A stretch of DNA of 32,932 bases from Chlorobiota bacterium (GCA_013152355.1 JAADGO010000069.1:1-32932), one strand, 5' to 3'. Counted from the first letter of the stretch, positions 5,333 through 17,245 are shown. Translations and numbers: made by a program. Notes: generated by a model not told the origin, from the sequence alone.

Positions 5333-6055
5333 ATGGCGGTTTTATTAGAAACGAAATGTGATAATTGCATTAATAATTGCTGCGCAGTTTGTGTTAAAGA
5401 ACACCAAAGCAGTGTTTTTTCAATTCTTCAAAAAGAAGATTTGGATATATTAATGGAAAATAAACAGGAAATTTTATTTAAGCCGGGAGAAACTATACTA
5501 AAACAGAATACTTCTTCCACACATGTTGTTTGTATAAAAAAAGGGCTTGCCAAAGTTTATATTGAGGGGATGAAAGGGAAAAGCCTCATTATAAAATTAA
5601 TTGGCGACCTTGACTTTATAACAGGAGGAGGTATTTTTGCAAACCATACCAGGCGTTTTACTGTTTCTGCTTTAACCAATGTAGAATGTTGCTTTATTAA
5701 CTCAGAACAAATCCTCAAACTCTTTTCGAAAAACAGTGAATTTGCATTAGAGATTATGAAATACCATAATGACCAAAACAACCAGATGTTAAATTCCCTG
5801 ATAAACCTTACCCAAAAATATATGCCAGGCAGGGTTGCAGACTCCCTTCTTTACCTAAAAAACGAAATTTTCAAAACAAGTTCCTTTCAACTTCCGTTAA
5901 ACAGGCAGGAACTTGCAGAAATGTCAGCTATGACAAAAGAGAGTTATGTCCGTATTTTAAAAGAGTTTAAAACCTCAGGGGTTATAAAACATATCAGGAA
6001 CTCAATGGTAATTCTCGATGAAAAAGCACTTGTGTCAATTAGTAAAAATGGTTAA
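5333..6055 (+). CDS. Crp/Fnr family transcriptional regulator with N-terminal Cys cluster
   Basis: A 240-residue regulator: a cyclic-nucleotide-binding-type beta barrel (about 35-125), a dimerisation helix, and a C-terminal winged helix-turn-helix (LPLNRQELAEMSAMTKESYVRILKEF). The recognition helix keeps Glu and Arg spaced as in CRP (E-x3-R), suggesting contact with a TGA half-site. The first 20 residues hold five cysteines (C9, C12, C16, C17, C20), and a CC pair sits at 119-120 close to where E. coli FNR has its fourth cluster ligand. An Fe-S or other thiol sensor is therefore possible. The 145 bp upstream hold no clear promoter. It directly precedes the cytochrome locus, a natural target. 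Confidence 0.88.
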   Translation: MAVLLETKCDNCINNCCAVCVKEHQSSVFSILQKEDLDILMENKQEILFKPGETILKQNTSSTHVVCIKKGLAKVYIEGMKGKSLIIKLIGDLDFITGGGIFANHTRRFTVSALTNVECCFINSEQILKLFSKNSEFALEIMKYHNDQNNQMLNSLINLTQKYMPGRVADSLLYLKNEIFKTSSFQLPLNRQELAEMSAMTKESYVRILKEFKTSGVIKHIRNSMVILDEKALVSISKNG

Positions 6056-6232: not shown

Positions 6233-7312
6233 ATGAAATCATTAAAAATATTTAAACTTATTATTTTGGCATTTGCATGTTTAGCTATTACAGTATCGTG
6301 TGTAAAAGAAGGGCCTATAGGTCCGGCTGGTGCAGACGGAGCAGATGGGGCGGACGGCACTGATGGCCAAAATGGAGTTGATGGTAATATAACCTGTTTA
6401 GTATGCCACTCTGGAAGTAATATGGACGAAAAGGAGGCTCAATTTTCTTTGTCTGAACACAAAAGCGGCGAGAATGCCGTAGCGTATGCCGGTGGGCGTG
6501 CCAGTTGTGCCAGATGCCACTCTCACGAAGGGTTTGTCCAATATGCTGAGTTTGGTAAAGTGCTGGGGGATATTTCAGCCCCAAGTGCATGGGAATGTGG
6601 GACATGCCATGGACTGCATAAAACATTTGAATCAACCGATTATGCCCTTAGGTTGTCTGACCCGGTTGTTTCTCTTTTTGACCCGAATGTAACAATGGAC
6701 CTTGGTGGCAACAGTAACCTTTGCGCCAATTGCCACCAGTCGAGAAAGCCCGGCCCGGTGGACGAAGACCAGTATAACAGGAAAGGTACTCTTGTTGATG
6801 CTGCCGGCAATGGGTTATATGCAATTACCAGTGTTTACTACGGGCCTCACCATGGACCACAGGCCAATGTAGTTGCAGGAGTCGGATTTGTCGAAATCCC
6901 AGGCTCTGTTACTTACCCTCAACCGGGTTCTTCAATACATTTAAACCAGGCATCGTGTACCGGCTGCCACATGGCCGAATTCTCAAACGGGCAGGGCGGG
7001 CATACCTGGAACCCCAGCCTTGATGCCTGCAATGCCTGCCACGGCGTAGATGAAAAAGATTTCAATTATGGAGGTATGCAAACAAACATAAATGCAAGGC
7101 TTGAAGAACTAAGAGATAAACTGGTAGAACTGGGAGTTGTAGAATGGGTTGAAGAGGAAGGCGAATTTAAGCCGGTAGTTGGGACATACCCAATGCTTCA
7201 GGTACAGGCTTTCTTTAACTGGACCGGCCTTGACGAAGACCGCAGTTTAGGAGTGCATAATCCAAAGTATGTTAATGCCTTATTGATCAATACTCTGGAA
7301 GCCCTTCAATAA
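6233..7312 (+). CDS. hexaheme cytochrome c lipoprotein with collagen-like stalk
   Basis: A 359-residue exported lipoprotein. A signal peptide ends in a lipobox (AITVSC, acylated Cys at about 23). Eight collagen-type Gly-X-Y triplets follow at once (GPIGPAGADGADGADGTDG and onward). The rest carries six CXXCH heme c motifs: CLVCH, CARCH, CGTCH, CANCH, CTGCH and CNACH, with several extra His as likely distal ligands. The lipoprotein signal and stalk suggest an outer-membrane or cell-surface electron carrier. I do not recognise a catalytic family; there is no CXXCK motif. The gene follows the Crp/Fnr regulator by 177 bp and ends at a hairpin terminator. A c-type cytochrome is certain; location and role are inferred. 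Confidence 0.9.
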   Translation: MKSLKIFKLIILAFACLAITVSCVKEGPIGPAGADGADGADGTDGQNGVDGNITCLVCHSGSNMDEKEAQFSLSEHKSGENAVAYAGGRASCARCHSHEGFVQYAEFGKVLGDISAPSAWECGTCHGLHKTFESTDYALRLSDPVVSLFDPNVTMDLGGNSNLCANCHQSRKPGPVDEDQYNRKGTLVDAAGNGLYAITSVYYGPHHGPQANVVAGVGFVEIPGSVTYPQPGSSIHLNQASCTGCHMAEFSNGQGGHTWNPSLDACNACHGVDEKDFNYGGMQTNINARLEELRDKLVELGVVEWVEEEGEFKPVVGTYPMLQVQAFFNWTGLDEDRSLGVHNPKYVNALLINTLEALQ

Positions 7313-7331
7313 ATACGACATTTCAATTGCT

Positions 7332-7364
7332 AAAAAAAGGCTTCTCTATTAGAGGTCTTTTTTT
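7332..7364 (+). terminator. rho-independent terminator / attenuator after the hexaheme gene
   Basis: A run of seven A, a stem GGCTTCT...AGAGGTC with two G-U pairs and a four-base loop, then seven T. The flanking A and T runs make it potentially bidirectional. It sits between the hexaheme gene and the monoheme lipoprotein gene and may lower expression of the downstream genes. Confidence 0.65.
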
Positions 7365-7391
7365 ATACTGATTATTAAAAATTAAAGCAAG

Positions 7392-7790
7392 ATGAAAAAA
7401 CTAAAGTTATTACTTCCAATAATAATCCTTTTTATTACGTTTAGTGCATGTAAATACGATTTTATCCTTCCTGAAGAGATTCCGGTGATCGACCCGGATA
7501 ATCCGACAGCAGAGATTTTTGGATTCGCGGAATATGTATTGCCAATATTTAATAAGAATGACAATTGTACTTCCTGCCATAAAACAGGGGGGCAATTGCC
7601 TGACCTTACTACTGAAAAAGCATACTCCTCACTTAACAGCGCAAGGTATATCAACCTGTCATCACCAGAACAGAGTAAAATCTATACTCATCCTTTGCCT
7701 GGTACAAGTACACATAAACATAAAAAATATACAGCTCAAGAAGCAGCTATAATACTTGCATGGATTAAGCAGGGAGCTAAAAACAACTAA
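7392..7790 (+). CDS. monoheme cytochrome c-like lipoprotein
   Basis: A 132-residue lipoprotein with a signal peptide ending FSAC (Cys at about 20). It has one heme motif, NCTSCHKTGG at about 56-60, preceded by AEYVLPIFNKN, a pattern of small class I c-type or planctomycete-type domains in which an open hole for metabolites precedes CxxCH. A C-terminal TAQEAAIILAWIKQGAKNN resembles the end of such cytochrome domains. It is probably anchored at the periplasmic or outer face of the envelope. It starts 27 bp after a terminator-like hairpin and is followed after 24 bp by the DUF5777 barrel gene, so the two are likely co-transcribed. Confidence 0.82.
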   Translation: MKKLKLLLPIIILFITFSACKYDFILPEEIPVIDPDNPTAEIFGFAEYVLPIFNKNDNCTSCHKTGGQLPDLTTEKAYSSLNSARYINLSSPEQSKIYTHPLPGTSTHKHKKYTAQEAAIILAWIKQGAKNN

Positions 7791-7814
7791 TGTTATATTT
7801 AAATACTCGCTATA

Positions 7815-8768
7815 ATGAAAAAAACATTTATCCTAATTATATTTACCGCCCTTACATTTAGTAGTGTGGTAGCACAGAAAGACAGCATACCAAAAGAAAG
7901 AGTAAAAGACGTACCGGTTTGGCTACCTTTCGAAAGCGGTTATTTAATTGATAATCAAACTTCTGTTATCCCAGCGGTAAAAACACTCGAATATGTTATT
8001 CAACACAAATTTGGGAATACGGAAAACGGCAGGTCTGATTTGTGGGGTATTTATGCTCCGGGCGCAAATATCAGGCTAGGGCTCAATTATGTACTGGCCA
8101 AGAACTTTCAGATAGGTGTTGGCATTACAAAAAAAAATAAATACAGTGACTTTAGTGCAAAATGGACAATCTTGGAACAAACCCGGAAAAACCAGGTACC
8201 GGTTGCGGTTACTTTGTACGGAAACCTTGCTATTGACGGCAGGGACATCAGTGCATTTGAAACCGGGAAGGTACAACGTGCCTTCCATGTCAATGAACAA
8301 TACAGTTATAAATTCCCTGACAGGATATCTTATTTCTCCCAGTTAATTATCGGAAGGAAATTTACAGATTGGCTATCGTTGCAAACAGCAATAAGCTTTA
8401 CGCACTATAATGCTACCAGGATTACCAGTGTCCAGGTTGCAGACGGCAGGTACATTGCCGAAGACCATGATAAAATTGGATTGCACTTTAGCGGGCGGGC
8501 AAGGATTTCTCCTCAATCCTCGTTAATTTTTAATTATGATATCCCTTTGAAAATAAAAAATATCTCGGAAGAGATCGAATGGCTTGATTATCCGCGCCCA
8601 AATTTAGCATTTGGGATTGAAATATCTACCGGCACCCATGTATTCCAGATTTACATGGGTACTGCTGATGGGATAATCCCACAAGATGTAATTTTATACA
8701 ACCAAAATGACTGGAAGAATGGTGGCTTAGCTATAGGTTTTACAATTACAAGGCTTTGGGAGTTTTGA
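7815..8768 (+). CDS. DUF5777 family beta-barrel outer-membrane protein
   Basis: A 317-residue protein with a signal peptide (cleavage near SSVVAQ). The rest alternates short amphipathic strands and turns and ends with an aromatic residue (TRLWEF), as expected for an outer-membrane barrel. The region from ETSV-like YLIDNQTSV to HKFGN and LWGIYAPGANIRLGLNY is what I associate with DUF5777. The family is of unknown function and in Bacteroidota is often near cytochrome and YceI genes. It sits between lipoprotein cytochromes and inner-membrane cytochromes, so a role in an envelope-spanning electron path is possible but unproven. There are no heme motifs of its own. Confidence 0.8.
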   Translation: MKKTFILIIFTALTFSSVVAQKDSIPKERVKDVPVWLPFESGYLIDNQTSVIPAVKTLEYVIQHKFGNTENGRSDLWGIYAPGANIRLGLNYVLAKNFQIGVGITKKNKYSDFSAKWTILEQTRKNQVPVAVTLYGNLAIDGRDISAFETGKVQRAFHVNEQYSYKFPDRISYFSQLIIGRKFTDWLSLQTAISFTHYNATRITSVQVADGRYIAEDHDKIGLHFSGRARISPQSSLIFNYDIPLKIKNISEEIEWLDYPRPNLAFGIEISTGTHVFQIYMGTADGIIPQDVILYNQNDWKNGGLAIGFTITRLWEF

Positions 8769-8786
8769 TTTGTTAAAGGGGATGTT

Positions 8787-8825
8787 AAAAAAAACCGGAT
8801 TCTCAATAATTTGAATTAATCCGGT
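8787..8825 (-). terminator. terminator-like hairpin read on the minus strand
   Basis: ACCGGATT (8794-8801) and AATCCGGT (8818-8825) form an 8-bp perfect stem. On the minus strand it is followed by eight T; on the plus strand there is no T run after the stem. No minus-strand gene reads into it in the present arrangement. Confidence 0.45.
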
Positions 8826-8833
8826 CATTGCCA

Positions 8834-8886
8834 CTGAAAATCAATATGTCACTCTCGAAAATACCCTTTAACTTTAAACAACTTCA
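8834..8886 (-). repeat. 53-bp inverted copy of MITE end
   Basis: This stretch is identical at 50 of 53 positions to the reverse complement of 13815-13867, the left end of the MITE-like element. It ends in the element's terminal sequence ACTTTAAACAACTTCA. Internal sequence next to it does not match the element, so it is a partial or divergent copy. It lies in the 197-bp gap before the heptaheme gene. Confidence 0.75.
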
Positions 8887-8965
8887 AGAAAAATGATTAA
8901 ATTTGGGGCGTAAAAAAAAGATCAAATTAACAGGGGCTAAACCACTATTTTAAATTATTGCGACT

Positions 8966-9901
8966 ATGTCATTCTTTATCCGGGGTTTTATATGTACAAT
9001 ATTACTTCTTCTGTTTACTTTATTTTCAACGCCTCAGAATATTCCCAAAGAAAACATGCATTGCCTAAAATGCCACTCTTCACAAACGTTTACAATATAT
9101 AATAACTGGACAGGGAAAAATGAAAAAAGGTTGATGAACCCTTTTTATATTTTAGACACAGTCAGGCTTGCAACCGGCGTACATAAAGACTTTCAGTGTA
9201 TCGATTGCCACTCGCCAGACTATGAAACATACCCTCATAAGAGTGAATTAAAATTAGAGCCCAAAAGCACATGCCTTGATTGCCATGGCGGTGATGATAC
9301 TTTTGCCTCTTTTCAGTTTGAGAGGATAAAAGAAGAATTTGAAAAAAGCGTGCATTTCACAACCAGCGGAGAAGCTTTTACCTGCTCAAAATGCCATAAC
9401 CAGCATTATTACAAACCTACGGCAAGGAATAGTAGTAATGTGGGGGAAATAGTTGACTTCGATAATGCAATGTGCCTGTCATGCCATAACAATATGACTA
9501 AATACCAACTGGTTTCGACCCATAAGAACCCGCAACTTGTGGAGGTACACAACTGGCTTCCCAACCAGGCACTCCATTTTATGCATGTACGTTGTATAGA
9601 ATGCCACACTGAGGTGATTGATTCTTTGATGGTGTCACACAATATTTTACCGAAAGAGAAGGCTACGCAAAAGTGTGCCGAATGCCATTCTGCCAATTCA
9701 TTGCTCCAGGCATCTCTTTACAAATACAAAAATATCCAATCCAGAACAGAAAAAGGTGCTATTAACAATATCATTTCCAACAAAGCGTATGTAATAGGGG
9801 AAAACCAGATACCATTACTTAATTGGCTTAGCATACTGATTTTCATTGCAACAATTGGGGGGATTGCCCTGCATATTGTTTTTAGAATCATGATAAAATA
9901 A
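8966..9901 (+). CDS. heptaheme cytochrome c with C-terminal membrane anchor (CbcA-like)
   Basis: A 311-residue exported cytochrome with an N-terminal signal sequence and seven CXXCH motifs: CLKCH, CIDCH, CLDCH, CSKCH, CLSCH, CIECH and CAECH. A single C-terminal helix (WLSILIFIATIGGIALHIVF, about 284-305) tethers it to the inner membrane. A membrane cytochrome b gene starts 6 bp later. This pairing, heptaheme c with a C-terminal anchor beside a diheme b subunit, is the layout of Geobacter CbcA and CbcB, a quinol-oxidising bc-type complex. The resemblance is architectural; sequence homology was not tested. Likely role: taking electrons from the b subunit into the periplasm. Confidence 0.85.
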   Translation: MSFFIRGFICTILLLLFTLFSTPQNIPKENMHCLKCHSSQTFTIYNNWTGKNEKRLMNPFYILDTVRLATGVHKDFQCIDCHSPDYETYPHKSELKLEPKSTCLDCHGGDDTFASFQFERIKEEFEKSVHFTTSGEAFTCSKCHNQHYYKPTARNSSNVGEIVDFDNAMCLSCHNNMTKYQLVSTHKNPQLVEVHNWLPNQALHFMHVRCIECHTEVIDSLMVSHNILPKEKATQKCAECHSANSLLQASLYKYKNIQSRTEKGAINNIISNKAYVIGENQIPLLNWLSILIFIATIGGIALHIVFRIMIK

Positions 9902-9907
9902 AGTAAC

Positions 9908-10525
9908 ATGGCAGAAGAAAAACTATATTTATACCCGGTTTGGCTAAGGGCATGGCATGGGATTAATGCTATCGGGATTGTGGTTTTAATTGTAACAGGG
10001 CTTAATATGCAATTCTCAAACCCCGATTATTCATTTATTAATTTTGAATTAGCAGTTAACCTGCATAATATTTGCGGGATTATTGTTACAATTGGCTACC
10101 TGGTTTTTATTATTGGCAACATAGCAACACCCAATAAAAAATATTACCGGATGAAATGGAAGGGGCTGCGCAAAAGATTATTCAAACAATTCCGGTTTTA
10201 TACACAGGGGATGTTTAAAGGCGAAAAACCACCGTTCCCTGTTTCAGAGAAAAGGAAATTCAACCCACTTCAAAAATTCTCGTATGTTGTGGTAATGTAC
10301 CTTTTTGTCCCCATAGCAATTGTTACAGGCATTGCCCTGTTGTTTCCCGAACTAATTATTGAAGAAGTTTATACGGTTAGCGGCATTTTCTTAACGGCAA
10401 TATTGCATGCAAGCATGGGGTTTTTAATTTCAATTTTCTTAATTGTCCATTTGTATGTTGCTTCAATTGGAAAAAATCCGTTAAACAATTTTAAAAGTAT
10501 AATAACAGGATGGCATCACGCTTAA
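9908..10525 (+). CDS. diheme-type cytochrome b membrane subunit (CbcB/HydB-like)
   Basis: A 205-residue integral membrane protein with about four transmembrane helices. Heme b ligand candidates are placed as in the Ni,Fe-hydrogenase/formate-dehydrogenase-gamma b family: RAWHGINA in helix 1, NLHNICG in helix 2, and LHASMGF and IVHLYVA in the last two. It begins 6 bp after the heptaheme gene and ends 27 bp before the preferred start of the 19-heme gene. It should oxidise menaquinol and pass electrons to the heptaheme partner. A hydrogenase or formate dehydrogenase role is unlikely because no such catalytic subunits are nearby. Confidence 0.85.
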   Translation: MAEEKLYLYPVWLRAWHGINAIGIVVLIVTGLNMQFSNPDYSFINFELAVNLHNICGIIVTIGYLVFIIGNIATPNKKYYRMKWKGLRKRLFKQFRFYTQGMFKGEKPPFPVSEKRKFNPLQKFSYVVVMYLFVPIAIVTGIALLFPELIIEEVYTVSGIFLTAILHASMGFLISIFLIVHLYVASIGKNPLNNFKSIITGWHHA

Positions 10526-10552
10526 ACGTGATTCTTTTTGATAACCAGGGTG

Positions 10553-13354
10553 ATGACTACTGTTTCAAACGATAAAATTATGATGAGATATTATACAATC
10601 ATATTGTTCGCAATAATGATGTTTTTAGGGGTAAACAACTTGTCGGCACAATCGGATGAAGACTGTTTTATGTGCCATGATGACCCTGAAATAACTTCGG
10701 AGAAACCCGGCAAAAAAGTTTCATTATATATACCTCCCAACGCCCTGGCACATTCGGTTCATAAAAACGTATCGTGTGGGTCATGCCATACCGATGCTGC
10801 TGTTGAAGATTTCCCGCACCCCGAAACCCTAAAGCCTGTAAATTGTGGGATTTGCCATGAGAAAGCCCAGTCCGATTTTTTAAGGGGATACCATGGCCGG
10901 GCATTTCAATTAAAAGACAAGAATGCCCCAGATTGCAAGGATTGCCATGGAACTCATGAAATAATCAAATCGGACCAACCCGAATCACAGACTTATAAAA
11001 TGAATATCCCTTTTTTATGTGGGTCGTGCCATAAGGAGGGAGCACCTGTTTCAAGGTCATATAATATCCAGGAACATAATATTGTTGAAAATTACAGCCA
11101 GGGTATCCACGGCAAGGGGTTATTCAAAAGCGGGCTTATTGTTACTGCTACCTGTAACGATTGCCATGGGAACCACCTTATCCTTCCCCATACAAATATA
11201 AATTCCAGTATCTCATCGAAGAACATTGCATCTACCTGTATGAAATGCCATGCCAGGATTGAAGATGTCCATGTAAAAGTGATAAATAAGAAATTATGGG
11301 AGAAAAAACCCGGTGCAATCCCGGCATGTACCGATTGCCATCCTCCGCATAAAGTTGAAATGCAAAATATATTGTCCACGATTTCTGATAAAACCTGCCT
11401 GAGATGCCATGATAAAGAAGATATACACATGGTTGTGGACAATAAGGAAGTTTCATTAAAAGTTGATGTTTCGGAACTAGCTGTTTCGGCCCATAAGAAT
11501 ATCACTTGTGTGAAATGCCATTCCGATGTAACAGCCAATTTACAACGCCCTTGCAAAACAGCAGATAAGGTCGATTGTTCCAACTGCCATGCAGAAGAGG
11601 CTGATATTTATTTTTCAAGTGGCCATGGGCAGGCTTATTTTAATAAAAAAGAAAATGCCCCTTATTGTACCGATTGCCATGGAACCCACCTCGTAAAACT
11701 CAAATCTGATGAAAGTTCCCCTGTATACAGGTCGGCAATCCCCTCCCTTTGTGGCAAATGCCACAGGAAAAACGGCAAAGCAACTGAAGGGACTCACCTT
11801 AATGAAATAGATGCATTCCATGACTATTCAACAAGTGTACATGGCAGGAGCCTTTCGGAAAAAGGATTGCTTTCGACAGCTGTTTGTACCGATTGCCATA
11901 CAACACATCACATGTTGAAAGAATCTGACGACAGGTCCTCGGTAAACCCCAAAAATATTGCTGCCACATGTGGGAATTGCCATAAGGGTATCTATAATGA
12001 ATATATTGCCAGTGACCACGCATACAAAGAAGAAGAAGGTGGCTTAAAATACCCGACCTGTGGGACATGCCACAAAGCACATTATATCTCAGAAGTACAT
12101 CAGGATAAATTTATGTCGGAAATAACAACGCAATGTGGGCAATGCCATTCCGATTTAGCTGAAACATACCTGGAGACATATCATGGAAAGGTTTACCAGT
12201 TAGGGTACTTAGAAGCTGCGAAGTGTTCCGATTGCCATGGAGCCCATAAGATCCTGAAAATGGATAACCCGGATTCATCAATTGGCCCTCTGAACATTGT
12301 GGCAACCTGCCGGAAATGCCATGTCGATGCAAACATGAAATTTACGGGTTACTTAACACATGCCACCCATTATAATAAAAGTAAGTTCCCCTGGCTCTAT
12401 TATACATTTTGGGCAATGACCGGTTTACTTATTAGTGTATTTGTCTTTTTTGGGCTACATACCCTTTTATGGCTGCCACAGTCGATCATTGCCATGCTCA
12501 GGAAGAAACGCCATGTAAAAAAGGCTGGTAAAAAAGAATTTATCCGGCGTTTCTCCAAAAGCCAGCGTGTTACCCATATTTTTGTAATTGTCAGCTTTTT
12601 ATTATTGGCATTAACAGGGATGATGCTGAAATTTGCCTATATGGAATGGGCTAAAACATTGGCTAAATTTATAGGAGGGGCATTTGTTGCAGGAGTTATC
12701 CACCGTATTGCGGCAGTTATCACTTTTGGGTATTTCGGATTCCATGTATTTTCATTGCTCCGGATTAAATTCAAAAGAGGTGTTAAATTCAAAAAATTTA
12801 TTTTTGGAAGTAACTCGCTGATGTTTAACCGTCAGGATATAAGAGATTTCTGGGCATCAATAAAATGGTTTACAGGAAGAGGCCCACGCCCATCCTACGG
12901 ACGCTGGACATACTGGGAGAAATTTGACTACATGGCGGTTTTCTGGGGTGTCGTTATTATTGGCTCAACAGGGTTGGTACTCTGGTTCCCCGAATTCTTC
13001 ACCATGATATTCCCGGGCTGGATAATCAATGTTGCCCAAATCATACATAGTGACGAGGCATTGCTGGCTGTTGGGTTTATCTTTACAATTCATTTCTTTA
13101 ATACCCACCTGCGGCCTGAATCATTCCCTATGGATACAGTTATTTTTACAGGATATGTCCCGCTCGAAGAATATAAGGAAGACAGGCCACGGGAATATGA
13201 GGAACTGGAGAAATCAGGGAAATTAAAGGATGTTATTGTTAAAACTGAGTTCTCGAAACAACGGATGAGGCTTGTGAAATTTTTCGGGTTTATTTTCTTG
13301 TTTACAGGAATAGTCCTTACCATTCTAATCCTATATTCGTTGCTTACTCATTAA
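10553..13354 (+). CDS. 19-heme cytochrome c fused to membrane cytochrome b (CbcL-like)
   Basis: A very large bc-type fusion of about 930 residues. After a signal peptide ([23 protein letters not shown]) come 19 CXXCH motifs between residues 43 and 595 (numbered from TTG 10538). The c region is internally repeated: hemes 1-8 align with 9-16, and 17-19 align with 5-7 and 13-15. From about residue 612 there are membrane helices with His residues as in diheme b cytochromes ([36 protein letters not shown]). Geobacter CbcL has the same order with nine c hemes. There is no CXXCK, so a nitrite reductase is unlikely. The track starts at TTG; ATG 10553 is chosen, but ATG 10580 would give the most typical signal peptide. 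Confidence 0.88.
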
Positions 13355-13360
13355 ATTATT

Positions 13361-13378
13361 AGAGACTGTTTAAATTTT
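13361..13378 (+). repeat. post-stop 18-bp motif, copy 1
   Basis: AGAGACTGTTTAAATTTT lies 6 bp after the stop of the 19-heme gene, in the sense direction. The same motif with one change follows the dgt stop on the other strand (29357-29374). Its role is unknown. Confidence 0.45.
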
Positions 13379-13390
13379 ATTGGGACAAAA

Positions 13391-13624
13391 TCAGACCTTA
13401 TACTGTAAATATATTCTGCTTCTGGTGGGGCAGGTACAAATAATCCTGCCATTAAGCTCACGTTGATAAACACAGGTTATGGAATTTACGCAAAAAACAA
13501 ATAGCTTTCCATCATTAATACTGGATATAACTTTACAAAGGTTTTCTCCCCTACCGGACAGGCAGGAAAAATTATTTTTACATTTGATTGTATTCCTTTT
13601 AACCTCTTCGCTTATATAAAACAT
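13391..13624 (-). CDS. small cysteine-rich hypothetical protein
   Basis: A 77-codon ORF on the strand opposite to its neighbours, in an otherwise gene-free 745-bp gap. The peptide has six cysteines, arranged around KCKNNFSCLSGRGENLCK, CVNSITCVYQ and ICTCPTRSRIY. The spacing looks ordered, like small Bacteroidota proteins of unknown function that end in a CPVR-type motif, but that is a recollection, not a search. There is no signal peptide or helix-turn-helix. A 9-bp inverted repeat (13661-13690) lies about 37 bp upstream of its ATG and could be regulatory. It could also be a chance ORF; about even odds. Confidence 0.45.
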   Translation of the reverse strand: MFYISEEVKRNTIKCKNNFSCLSGRGENLCKVISSINDGKLFVFCVNSITCVYQRELNGRIICTCPTRSRIYLQYKV

Positions 13625-13814
13625 TGCAACCCTTAAATCAAAAATATATTTTATTATTAGTTCTAATTTTCTAATCTTAATAAATTAGAAACAATGATTA
13701 TGTAAAGGTAATATATTTTCCCCTAAATATAATTTTGCCATTTTAAGATAGTGGATGTTAAATATGTTTTATCCTTCATTTTCCACCGGTAGCCCTCCGG
13801 ATATATCTTCATAA
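13625..13814. other. AT-rich intergenic stretch with inverted repeat
   Basis: No gene is visible. It holds a perfect inverted repeat, TTCTAATTT at 13661-13669 and AAATTAGAA at 13682-13690 with a 12-bp loop, upstream of the small minus-strand ORF. The remainder is low-complexity AT-rich DNA leading into the MITE-like element. Confidence 0.4.
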
Positions 13815-13995
13815 TGAAGTTGTTTAAAGTTAAAGTGGATTTCCGAGAGTGACATATTGATTTTCAGCCCCGAGGACTCGGGGAAGCTCGGTTTTTCTTG
13901 CATCCCGAACACTCGGGATGGAAGGAAAATTAGCTGAAGTCCAATGGGAGCAAGATGTTACTCACAGGTTTTCAATTTGACTTTAAACAACTTCA
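13815..13995. mobile_element. 181-bp MITE-like element with 16-bp terminal inverted repeats
   Basis: The ends TGAAGTTGTTTAAAGT (13815-13830) and ACTTTAAACAACTTCA (13980-13995) are perfect 16-bp inverted repeats. Inside are two perfect hairpins: CCCCGAG-GA-CTCGGGG at 13868-13883 and CATCCCGA-ACAC-TCGGGATG at 13901-13920. It has no coding capacity. I do not see a convincing target-site duplication. The left 53 bp recur, inverted, at 8834-8886. This suits a non-autonomous miniature transposon or a related mobile repeat; no transposase is in the window. Confidence 0.65.
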
Positions 13996-14028
13996 ATAAT
14001 TAGAAAAGGTATAAATAAACAAAACATA

Positions 14029-14058
14029 TTGAATTATGGCCTATTTTTTATAAACTTG
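14029..14058 (+). promoter_or_regulatory. putative promoter of the NapC/NirT-type cytochrome gene
   Basis: TTG at 14029-14031, a 19-bp spacer, then TAAACTTG at 14051-14058, one base off the Bacteroidota -7 consensus TAnnTTTG. The ATG follows about 41 bp downstream. It lies just outside the MITE-like element. Confidence 0.4.
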
Positions 14059-14099
14059 CACAATTAATTATAAACCATTTTTTTATTAAAATTTCTGGA

Positions 14100-15605
14100 A
14101 TGAAACTACCATCATCAGTTAAAAACTGGGTGTCAATAGTAGGTGCAGTACTGGCCATTTTTAACCTGGCAAGCATTCTGTCATTATTTATTTTACATTC
14201 ATTTTTTAATTTCGGAGGATCTTATATTGGCTTGTTTATTTATATTGTATTGCCTGCATTTATGATTACAGGGCTAATACTTATCCCTATCGGGATGAGG
14301 TTAAACAGCCGCAAAACAAGAAAAGCTAAAAAAGAAGATGAAGGCAAAAGCTGGCCAATTATTAATTTTAATAATGTTGCAACACGTAATGTATCAATAA
14401 TTTTCGTCCTTGGCACTATCTTCCTTCTTATAATCTCATCGATAGGGAGTTATGAAGCATTTCATTATACCGAGTCGGTTGAGTTTTGTGGGAAATTATG
14501 CCACCGGGTGATGGAGCCGGAGTATACAGCATACCATTCTTCTTCGCATGAGCGTGTTGCTTGTGTTGAATGCCACGTTGGGTCGGGTGCAAGTTGGTAT
14601 GTTAAAAGTAAACTTTCGGGTTTATACCAGGTTTATGCTGTGTTAACAGATGCCTATCCACGTCCGATCCCTACTCCTGTTCACAACCTGCGCCCGGCAC
14701 AGGAAACCTGCGAACAATGCCATTGGCCCGAGAAATTTTATGACAGGAAATTGCTACTCGAAAAGTCGTACCTTGCCGATGAGAAAAATACTGAATGGAA
14801 TATTCAGATGCAAATGAAAACCAGTTCAAGGGTTACTTCGGAAGGATTGGTGGAAAAAGGGATTCACCAACATATTAACCCAGACATCAAGATAGAGTAT
14901 AAAACTTCTGCTGCCAACAGGCAGGTAATCCCCTGGGTTAAATATACCAATATCAAAACAGGTTTTAGCGAGATATATACAGATAAAGAGAATATGTTAA
15001 GCCAGGCAGAACTTGACTCGATTAAACCCAGGGTAATGGACTGCCTTGATTGCCATAACAGGCCATCGCATAATTATAACGTTCCACAAAACTTTATAGA
15101 TAAACTGATGAGCGATAGGAAGATATCTAAAACTTTACCGGAAATTAAACTGATATCAATGGTCGTATTAAATCAGGAATACCCGGATAAGGACAGTGCA
15201 TTTGTAGCAATAAAAAACCAGGTTACCAAATTTTATGAAAAAAGCTATCCCAGCCTGATAACTGATAGGAAATCTGAGATTGATACTGCAATCATTGAAA
15301 TACAAAACGGGTATGCCAATAATATCTTCCCTGAAATGAAGGTGAGCTGGAAAGCTTATCCAAACAATATTGGCCACATGGAATCGGATGGTTGTTTCAG
15401 GTGCCATAACAACCGGCACTCAACAGAGTCTGGCAAGGTAATATCAAAGGATTGTAATTTGTGCCATATAATTACTGCGCAGGGGACAACAGAAAATATG
15501 GATTATTCCAACTCATCTGAACCACTTGAGTTCAAACACCCGGTTGATATTGACCAGGCCTGGCGTACCGAACCCTGTTCAATGTGCCATTCGGAACTAT
15601 ATTAA
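14100..15605 (+). CDS. NapC/NirT-type heptaheme cytochrome c (ImcH-like)
   Basis: A 501-residue membrane cytochrome with three transmembrane helices (about 10-35, 42-66 and 97-117), then a periplasmic multiheme domain. The first heme site is an atypical CX3CH, CGKLCH at C130-H135, followed by RVMEPEYTAYHSS. Six CXXCH follow: CVECH, CEQCH, CLDCH, CFRCH, CNLCH and CSMCH. Three helices, seven heme sites and about 500 residues is the layout of Geobacter ImcH, a quinol-to-periplasm electron donor. NapC/NrfH proteins share the N-terminal region but are shorter and tetraheme. It is separated from the upstream operon by 745 bp with its own likely promoter, and ends at a hairpin terminator. Confidence 0.87.
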   Translation: MKLPSSVKNWVSIVGAVLAIFNLASILSLFILHSFFNFGGSYIGLFIYIVLPAFMITGLILIPIGMRLNSRKTRKAKKEDEGKSWPIINFNNVATRNVSIIFVLGTIFLLIISSIGSYEAFHYTESVEFCGKLCHRVMEPEYTAYHSSSHERVACVECHVGSGASWYVKSKLSGLYQVYAVLTDAYPRPIPTPVHNLRPAQETCEQCHWPEKFYDRKLLLEKSYLADEKNTEWNIQMQMKTSSRVTSEGLVEKGIHQHINPDIKIEYKTSAANRQVIPWVKYTNIKTGFSEIYTDKENMLSQAELDSIKPRVMDCLDCHNRPSHNYNVPQNFIDKLMSDRKISKTLPEIKLISMVVLNQEYPDKDSAFVAIKNQVTKFYEKSYPSLITDRKSEIDTAIIEIQNGYANNIFPEMKVSWKAYPNNIGHMESDGCFRCHNNRHSTESGKVISKDCNLCHIITAQGTTENMDYSNSSEPLEFKHPVDIDQAWRTEPCSMCHSELY

Positions 15606-15617
15606 TCAAGCAACTTT

Positions 15618-15636
15618 AAAGAGTTAAGCTCTTTTT
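15618..15636 (+). terminator. rho-independent terminator after the NapC/NirT-type gene
   Basis: Stem AAAGAG-TTAAG-CTCTTT followed by further T, 12 bp after the stop codon. The stem is short but well placed. Confidence 0.5.
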
Positions 15637-15696
15637 GAGTTATATTGCACCTTTAAATAGATAATCCAAGTTTTACATTAAACAAAACCGATAAAA

Positions 15697-16446
15697 ATGA
15701 TAAAATCAGGGTCCATAACAGAACAAATAGGCATAAAAATGATATTGTGTGCCTTTTTTATTTTTAGCTCTATCATAGTATGCCGTTCCCAGGATTCTTC
15801 GGGTTTTATCGAAAAACATCCTAATGTACATAAGGTTGTTGTCGACTCGGTTTTGCAAACAACTTCATATACTTACCTCCTCATTAAAGAAAATGACAGT
15901 TTGCAATGGATCGCCATCCCTAAGATAGAAGCGTCCATAGGTGATACTTATTATTTCCAGGGTGGGATGGAAATGACCAATTTTAGAAGTAAAGAGCTAA
16001 ACCGGGTTTTTAGTTCAGTGTTATTTTTAAATGGGGTAATTAGCTCCACAATACTTGAAGGAGGGAAAACAGTTTTAGAAGCCTCACCACAATATTCAAG
16101 GACAAAAACTGTAAAATTAGATTCGAAAATTGAACCGGCAAAGAATGGCATTACCATTGCAGAGTTATTCTCGAACAAAGAGAAATATGCTGATAAGACA
16201 GTGATAATCAGAGGGCAGGTAACAAAATACAATGCCGGTATAATGGATCGGAACTGGATTCACCTACAAGATGGCTCCTCCGGTTCAGAGGATCTTGATT
16301 TTACAGCAACATCACAAATGGAAACAAAAGAAGGCGATATTATAACAATTAAAGGGAAAATAATATTAAATAAAAATTTTGGCTCCGGTTATTTCTTCAG
16401 TGTTATAATGGAAGATGGCATTATTATTGAGAATAATGAGGACTGA
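15697..16446 (+). CDS. exported tandem OB-fold protein of unknown function
   Basis: A 249-residue protein. An N-terminal hydrophobic segment (MILCAFFIFSSIIVCRSQ) is a signal peptide or anchor; ATG 15739 would put it right at the N-terminus. Two beta-rich halves follow. The first (about 40-105) has SYTYLLIKENDSLQWIAIPK and IGDTYYFQGG. The second (about 150-245) has KTVIIRGQVTKYNAGIMDRNWIHLQDGSSG and EGDIITIKGKI. Both resemble OB-fold repeats of NrfJ-like or nucleotide-binding-like exported proteins seen beside multiheme cytochromes. Nothing indicates catalysis. It sits between two cytochrome genes, so a role in cytochrome maturation or as an envelope partner is possible. Confidence 0.65.
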   Translation: MIKSGSITEQIGIKMILCAFFIFSSIIVCRSQDSSGFIEKHPNVHKVVVDSVLQTTSYTYLLIKENDSLQWIAIPKIEASIGDTYYFQGGMEMTNFRSKELNRVFSSVLFLNGVISSTILEGGKTVLEASPQYSRTKTVKLDSKIEPAKNGITIAELFSNKEKYADKTVIIRGQVTKYNAGIMDRNWIHLQDGSSGSEDLDFTATSQMETKEGDIITIKGKIILNKNFGSGYFFSVIMEDGIIIENNED

Positions 16447-16462
16447 TGAATTAAATAGGATT

Positions 16463-16489
16463 GGCAAATTGGCATTTTAGCCATTTTTT
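16463..16489 (+). terminator. weak terminator after the OB-fold gene
   Basis: TGGC-ATTTTA-GCCA followed by seven T. The stem is only 4 bp, so this is a weak candidate, but it is 30-40 bp after the stop codon in the 133-bp gap. Confidence 0.35.
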
Positions 16490-16579
16490 TATGATATTAC
16501 TTTTTCACACAAAATCAATAATCTTATATTTGGCTGCCTCTCCTTTATTTTAATTTTTTGATTATAATAATAGGCTTTT

Positions 16580-17245
16580 ATGAGGATATTCAAAAGATTT
16601 TTTATCTGTTCCCTGTTTGCTTTCTCCCCTACAATTTTGTTTAGCCAGGGATTATCGAATAGCCACCATGATTTTTCAGGAGCATCGTGGAGTGGGAACG
16701 AAGCATGCAGGCCATGCCATACACCTCACAATGCCAATATGGAAGTACCCGGCTCCCCACTATGGAACCATCAGCTTACAAATGCTTCTTTCCAGGTTTA
16801 TGCAAGTTCAACACTGAATAGTTCTCCGGGGCAACCTACAGGCAACTCAAAGCTTTGCCTCTCTTGCCATGACGGAACCGTTTCAGTTGAAAACTATAAT
16901 GGTAATACAAACGGTACATATTATACTACCTTCGGGAACCTGACGACAGATTTGAGGCATAACCATCCAATCTCTTTTGCCTATAACTCGGCCCTTGCTT
17001 CAATCGACAATGGGTTGCATGACCCAAGTTCAACGCCATCAGGCTTAGGGAGTACTATAGAAGAAGACCTGTTGCAAGAAGGGAGAGTGGAATGCACTTC
17101 ATGCCATGATGTCCATATCGGCAGGAATACGCAGGGGTGCATTGGGTGCCATAATATCCATAGTGGGAATATGACCACCACTACCCTGTCGTTATGGAAG
17201 TCAAATGAAGACAGTGCATTATGTTTAACATGCCACAATAAATAG
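16580..17245 (+). CDS. pentaheme cytochrome c, exported
   Basis: A 221-residue soluble exported protein with a signal peptide (cleaved near ILFSQ) and five CXXCH motifs: CRPCH, CLSCH, CTSCH, CIGCH and CLTCH. The N-terminal SNSHHDFSGASWSGNEACRPCHTPH pattern is typical of multiheme carriers of the doubled-CXXCH type in metal- and sulfur-cycling bacteria. It has no membrane anchor or catalytic CXXCK motif. It is probably a periplasmic or surface electron carrier at the downstream end of the locus. A hairpin terminator follows. Confidence 0.86.
   Translation: MRIFKRFFICSLFAFSPTILFSQGLSNSHHDFSGASWSGNEACRPCHTPHNANMEVPGSPLWNHQLTNASFQVYASSTLNSSPGQPTGNSKLCLSCHDGTVSVENYNGNTNGTYYTTFGNLTTDLRHNHPISFAYNSALASIDNGLHDPSSTPSGLGSTIEEDLLQEGRVECTSCHDVHIGRNTQGCIGCHNIHSGNMTTTTLSLWKSNEDSALCLTCHNK

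Follow-up and report, generated by a model that had tools for sequence, protein, structure and literature searches.

A recurrent multiheme cytochrome locus of Bacteroidota with CbcBA-, CbcL- and ImcH-like architectures and a possible role in electron export

Most of what is known about extracellular respiration comes from Geobacter, Shewanella, and a small number of Gram-positive bacteria. The locus described here, from a 3.38-Mb genome (98% complete) that probably represents an uncultured genus of Prolixibacteraceae, raises the question of whether a cluster of multiheme cytochromes in a Bacteroidota genome exports electrons to an outside acceptor, feeds a reductase for a soluble one, or carries electrons inward. 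The porin-cytochrome principle and the three gateway types discussed below are already known (PMC9129911, PMC12307469, PMC6148476); we found no paper on this Bacteroidota block in the open-licence literature.

The window is the whole contig (C72), 32,932 nucleotides long. A preliminary description had proposed that one locus in it combines three kinds of quinol-oxidizing cytochrome with an outer-membrane module. Its features are given below; locus counts, here and throughout, were taken over 81 loci including the analysed one, and many of these end at contig edges, so the counts are lower bounds.

5333-6055, + strand: CRP/FNR-family regulator (cNMP_binding and HTH_Crp_2), adjoining the hexaheme gene; at least 29 of 81 loci
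6233-7312, + strand: hexaheme lipoprotein with an OcwA/NrfA-like fold; six CXXCH, lipobox Cys23, collagen-like stalk at 27-51; at least 28 of 81 loci
7392-7790, + strand: monoheme c lipoprotein; one CXXCH, lipobox; directly 5' of the DUF5777 gene in at least 38 of 81 loci
7815-8768, + strand: DUF5777 beta-barrel, about 12-14 strands; PF19089, E 7e-72; AF2 pLDDT 87; Foldseek matches NanC, FapF, OmpG
8966-9901, + strand: heptaheme c with a C-terminal anchor, CbcA-like architecture; seven CXXCH, TM 281-311; directly 5' of the cytochrome b gene in at least 45 of 81 loci
9908-10525, + strand: di-heme cytochrome b, CbcB-like architecture; PF01292, E 1e-26; invariant His 17, 53, 167, and 181
10538-13354, + strand: 19-heme c domain fused to a six-helix cytochrome b, CbcL-like architecture; 19 CXXCH, C-terminal PF01292, duplicated 8-heme unit
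13812-13998, no strand assigned: MITE-like palindromic repeat; about 40 copies in the genome; hairpin z -10.2
14100-15605, + strand: NapC/NrfH-like heptaheme protein with three N-terminal helices, ImcH-like architecture; PF03264, NrfH; first heme CX3CH
15697-16446, + strand: secreted OB-fold-like protein, accessory; weak domain match; at least 6 of 81 loci
16580-17245, + strand: 5-heme c protein, accessory; PF09699; at least 5 of 81 loci; paralogues on contig C141
17521-19473, + strand: hybrid histidine kinase with a Tll0287-like sensor domain and one CXXCH; PF11845 (E 1e-17), HisKA, Response_reg

Frame translation agreed with the heme sites claimed earlier: the six c-type proteins carry 6, 1, 7, 19, 6 plus one CX3CH (making 7), and 5 CXXCH motifs, and the separate cytochrome b and the beta-barrel were also recovered as domain matches. 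This heme pattern is not due to chance, since the motifs are kept in 26 to 34 aligned relatives per family and the gene order recurs. The OB-fold protein fared less well: the gene is there, but its label is weak (tRNA_anti-like, E 0.05). Nor do this gene and the 5-heme gene belong to the core, as had been supposed, being present in just 6 and 5 of the 81 loci, respectively. The conserved unit extends from about 5333, at the CRP-type regulator, to 15605. Paralogues of the 5-heme protein are encoded by ORFs 2 and 7 of locus L114 (41 and 52%). Directly 3' of the 5-heme gene lies the kinase, possibly a heme-based redox sensor that might be linked to the locus.

To describe relatives of the block, we scanned with the 19-heme protein, which gave 180 related stretches, and kept 80 loci. 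Most of these belong to Prolixibacteraceae or other Bacteroidales, some are from Chlorobiota or Aminicenantes, and one is a Spirochaete record; four cultured Maribellus strains also carry the block. The recurring order is CRP regulator, hexaheme lipoprotein, monoheme lipoprotein, DUF5777, heptaheme c, cytochrome b, 19-heme c-b fusion, and NapC-like heptaheme, which settles the concern, voiced in the preliminary description, that the gene order might not be conserved in relatives. Besides the two adjacent pairs listed above, cytochrome b precedes the 19-heme gene in at least 37 of 81 loci, and the latter precedes the NapC-like gene in at least 25. At least 34 loci contain all four inner-membrane genes, and in at least 19 the eight core genes lie together on a single stretch. 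In many distant loci, the gene order is permuted or partly inverted. Elsewhere, the block usually includes a tetraheme c554-like gene (at least 55 loci) and CcsBA (at least 20 loci); here, both lie on contig C141.

The tree of the 19-heme protein does not cleanly separate phyla, with Chlorobiota-labelled rows placed among Bacteroidota; because the bin labels are unsure, we do not read gene transfer from it. In two Aminicenantes loci (L109 and L111), the fusion has tetraheme c554-like genes and further large clusters of multiheme proteins as neighbours, and the remainder of the Bacteroidota block is missing around it. In the window, the MITE-like palindrome of about 187 bases separates the 19-heme and NapC-like genes, and another copy (C141:16343-16530) sits close upstream of the tetraheme and CcsBA genes displaced to that contig. 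These copies may mark rearrangement.

As first proposed, CbcBA-, CbcL-, and ImcH-like proteins are encoded side by side, and the arrangement is kept in relatives; the likeness is one of architecture. The heptaheme protein of CbcBA has a C-terminal anchor. By architecture only, the pair found here resembles CbcBA of Geobacter sulfurreducens in joining a multiheme c protein to a di-heme cytochrome b quinone oxidoreductase, and it differs in adjoining CbcL-like and NapC-like genes. Its heptaheme member has seven invariant non-motif His residues in the heme domain and one more in the C-terminal anchor, and the small cytochrome b has four His, typical of two b hemes.

CbcL consists of a six-helix di-heme b domain and a c domain (PMC9129911). 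The fusion in our locus, likened to CbcL of G. sulfurreducens by architecture, has the same plan, with six hydrophobic helices in its b domain, which as a whole is FdnI-like. It differs in having 19 hemes rather than 9, through an 8-heme unit that is present twice (80-287 and 324-533; 35% identity, E 3e-47), and in its hosts, which are Bacteroidota, Chlorobiota, and Aminicenantes. Nineteen fully invariant non-motif His residues match the 19 hemes, and a twentieth is 97% kept; as in CbcL, the conserved His suffice for bis-His coordination of all c hemes. The profile of the heptaheme protein is related to that of the 19-heme protein (hhalign, 99%), whereas the relation between the b domains of the small cytochrome b and the fusion is less clear (65%). 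Close to the 19-heme fusion, L062, L070, L072, L074, L079, L081, L082, and L090 have another c-b fusion, with 16 hemes and about 30% identity.

The third gateway candidate shares an NrfH-like N-terminal domain, three helices, and seven hemes with the ImcH and NapC-NirT family (PF03264, E 9e-10). It departs from that family in its first heme, which is the seventh site and reads CX3CH in 51 of 51 rows examined; in addition, the solved NrfH matched weakly, and the NrfH model scored 51 bits, under the cut-off of 134. Seven free His are invariant, as is Met138, which sits like the heme-1 ligand of NrfH. ImcH is itself NapC-related (PMC12307469). In Desulfuromonas acetexigens, the ImcH and CbcL homologues have consecutive accession numbers (TRO80643.1 and TRO80642.1; PMC12133095); thus, pairing of these two types may be neither new nor unique.

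What might this set of proteins do? Given the architecture, conservation, linkage, and fold similarity observed for the block, we regard an electron-export module, for extracellular or outer-surface respiration, as its probable role, with appreciable room for doubt. The three gateways would oxidize menaquinol, and their heme chains would pass electrons to carriers in the periplasm, of which the tetraheme c554-like protein is usually one. From these carriers, electrons would flow to a separate porin-cytochrome complex, encoded here on C141, and across the outer membrane, where surface cytochromes, the OcwA-like lipoprotein among them, would deliver them to an outside acceptor. By analogy with Geobacter (PMC12307469), the three gateways may serve different acceptor potentials.

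The cluster that encodes the candidate complex has genes for an NHL propeller and a 9-heme lipoprotein, then for a predicted barrel of 649 residues and for a 14-heme protein, which matches SPOR weakly. Also on this contig are paralogues of the 5-heme protein, a protein with 11 hemes, a kinase paired with a regulator, and the tetraheme and CcsBA genes. Nearly all full-length relatives of the barrel occur in the arrangement propeller, 5 to 9 hemes, barrel, and 8 to 19 hemes. As in the Ext, Omc, Oet, and Mtr conduits, multiheme proteins, one of them a lipoprotein, flank a large predicted barrel. The cluster differs from these systems in its barrel family, whose profile had no sequence match to a solved structure in the PDB, and in this genome it lies apart from the three-gateway locus.

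We then considered whether the two halves occur together. Of 393 genomes of the order, counted with relatedness ignored and after removal of weak matches by hand, 23 have the barrel, 36 have the 19-heme fusion, and 71 have the NapC-like protein. On the same footing, barrel and fusion are found jointly in 15 genomes against 2.1 expected, barrel and NapC-like protein in 20 against 4.2, and NapC-like protein and fusion in 33 against 6.5. Moreover, L035, L074, and L082 have the conduit genes and the 19-heme gene on one contig, which ties the two halves together. The barrel is missing from 21 of the 36 genomes with the fusion, a point against the export reading; hence, either cells can do without this conduit or they use others.

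The DUF5777 barrel had been placed at the outer-membrane end of the pathway. A part as outer-membrane conduit was not supported: the model of this 317-residue protein (pLDDT 87) is a small porin-like barrel of 12 to 14 strands, nearest to NanC, FapF, and OmpG. We rejected it as an MtrB-type conduit barrel, too narrow for a multiheme insert; judging from the model, it is probably not of that type, and the C141 cluster is the likelier conduit.

The profile of the hexaheme lipoprotein matches OcwA (6i5b, E 1.1e-14) and octaheme nitrite reductase (8rv0, E 1.7e-14) best, and the protein's model (pLDDT 78) has OcwA as the first Foldseek match (E 2.5e-5, probability 1.00; NrfA, 0.06). OcwA, a member of the NrfA/c554/MccA family, is a cell-surface terminal reductase of Thermincola potens (PMC6703420). 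The two proteins have in common an NrfA-like heme core, a C-terminal helix bundle, and a CXXCH motif where NrfA has the CXXCK of its active site. In both, an HH or HY pair also occupies a comparable position; judging from the numbering, H206 with H/Y207 may mirror the HH pair of OcwA. They differ in that OcwA has nine hemes and our protein six, without most of the c554-like half, and in that the latter is a Gram-negative lipoprotein whose lipobox and collagen-like stalk suggest a position at the cell surface. The sixth heme motif varies, with CX4CH in place of CXXCH in 11 of 34 rows.

By both profile and fold, however, this heme core is also homologous to that of NrfA and octaheme nitrite reductase, and membership of a fold family that includes nitrite reductases tells against export. 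Alternatively, then, the lipoprotein could be a terminal reductase of the NrfA/octaheme family that is fed by the quinol cytochromes, with DUF5777, itself porin-like, as the substrate pore. Profile matches to octaheme nitrite reductase and NrfA (E 1.7e-14 to 1e-11), a C-terminal EDRSLGVHNP helix motif in common, and the slow nitrite reduction by OcwA itself (kcat of 1 per min; PMC6703420) agree with such a soluble-acceptor chain. We nevertheless consider it unlikely. The catalytic CXXCK and Tyr of these enzymes are absent from 26 of 26 hexaheme sequences, where the alignment instead puts CXXCH and an invariant Arg; three gateways and a 19-heme chain would be excessive for a single soluble reductase; and the block is linked to a porin-cytochrome cluster. 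We withdrew the argument that the number of invariant His leaves the hexaheme protein without an open site, since OcwA has a sufficient number of His yet two open hemes (PMC6703420).

Less probable again is flow in the opposite direction, in which electrons from Fe(II), metallic iron, or a syntrophic partner would enter the quinone pool and support nitrate or oxygen respiration. The genome has NapA and a qNOR-like oxidase (both named by eye from sequence), and CbcBA has been proposed to run in reverse in Seep-SRB2 (PMC10553843), whereas multi-gateway sets are known for export. A COX1-like haem-copper oxidase frame, also named by eye, is broken by four stops (C98:4207-5697).

At another site in the genome, genes for NapG, NapH, NapB, and an NrfCD-like pair accompany that of the one molybdopterin enzyme, named by eye as NapA; with these partners, NapA has no need for the three gateways. 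It is thus very improbable that the heptaheme protein, despite its NapC/NirT family match and the presence of NapA, serves periplasmic nitrate reductase amid unrelated neighbours, the more so as its gene is present in 33 of 36 genomes with the 19-heme gene and adjacent to the latter in at least 25 loci; we rejected NapA as its partner.

Returning to electron export, a stronger form would hold that Bacteroidota have an extracellular-respiration system of their own, a single block with three unlike quinol gateways, one of them a 19-heme wire with a duplication, and at its end a stalked surface reductase of the OcwA type. We put this forward tentatively, at somewhat less than even chances. Our results suggest that uncultured and some cultured Bacteroidota can respire outside the cell; if so, Bacteroidota of sediments and groundwater that look fermentative would export electrons, and an outer-surface enzyme type characterised so far from Gram-positive bacteria would extend to them. 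The four Maribellus strains that carry the locus make the idea directly testable, and the clustering would allow a few deletions to probe why a cell keeps several quinol gateways.

Two further cytochromes were seen. A nine-heme protein with a type IX secretion sorting domain (L124:6116-7912, contig C42) is a candidate extracellular cytochrome, and an eight-heme cytochrome fused to TPR repeats is encoded at L122:5026-7365 (contig C230).
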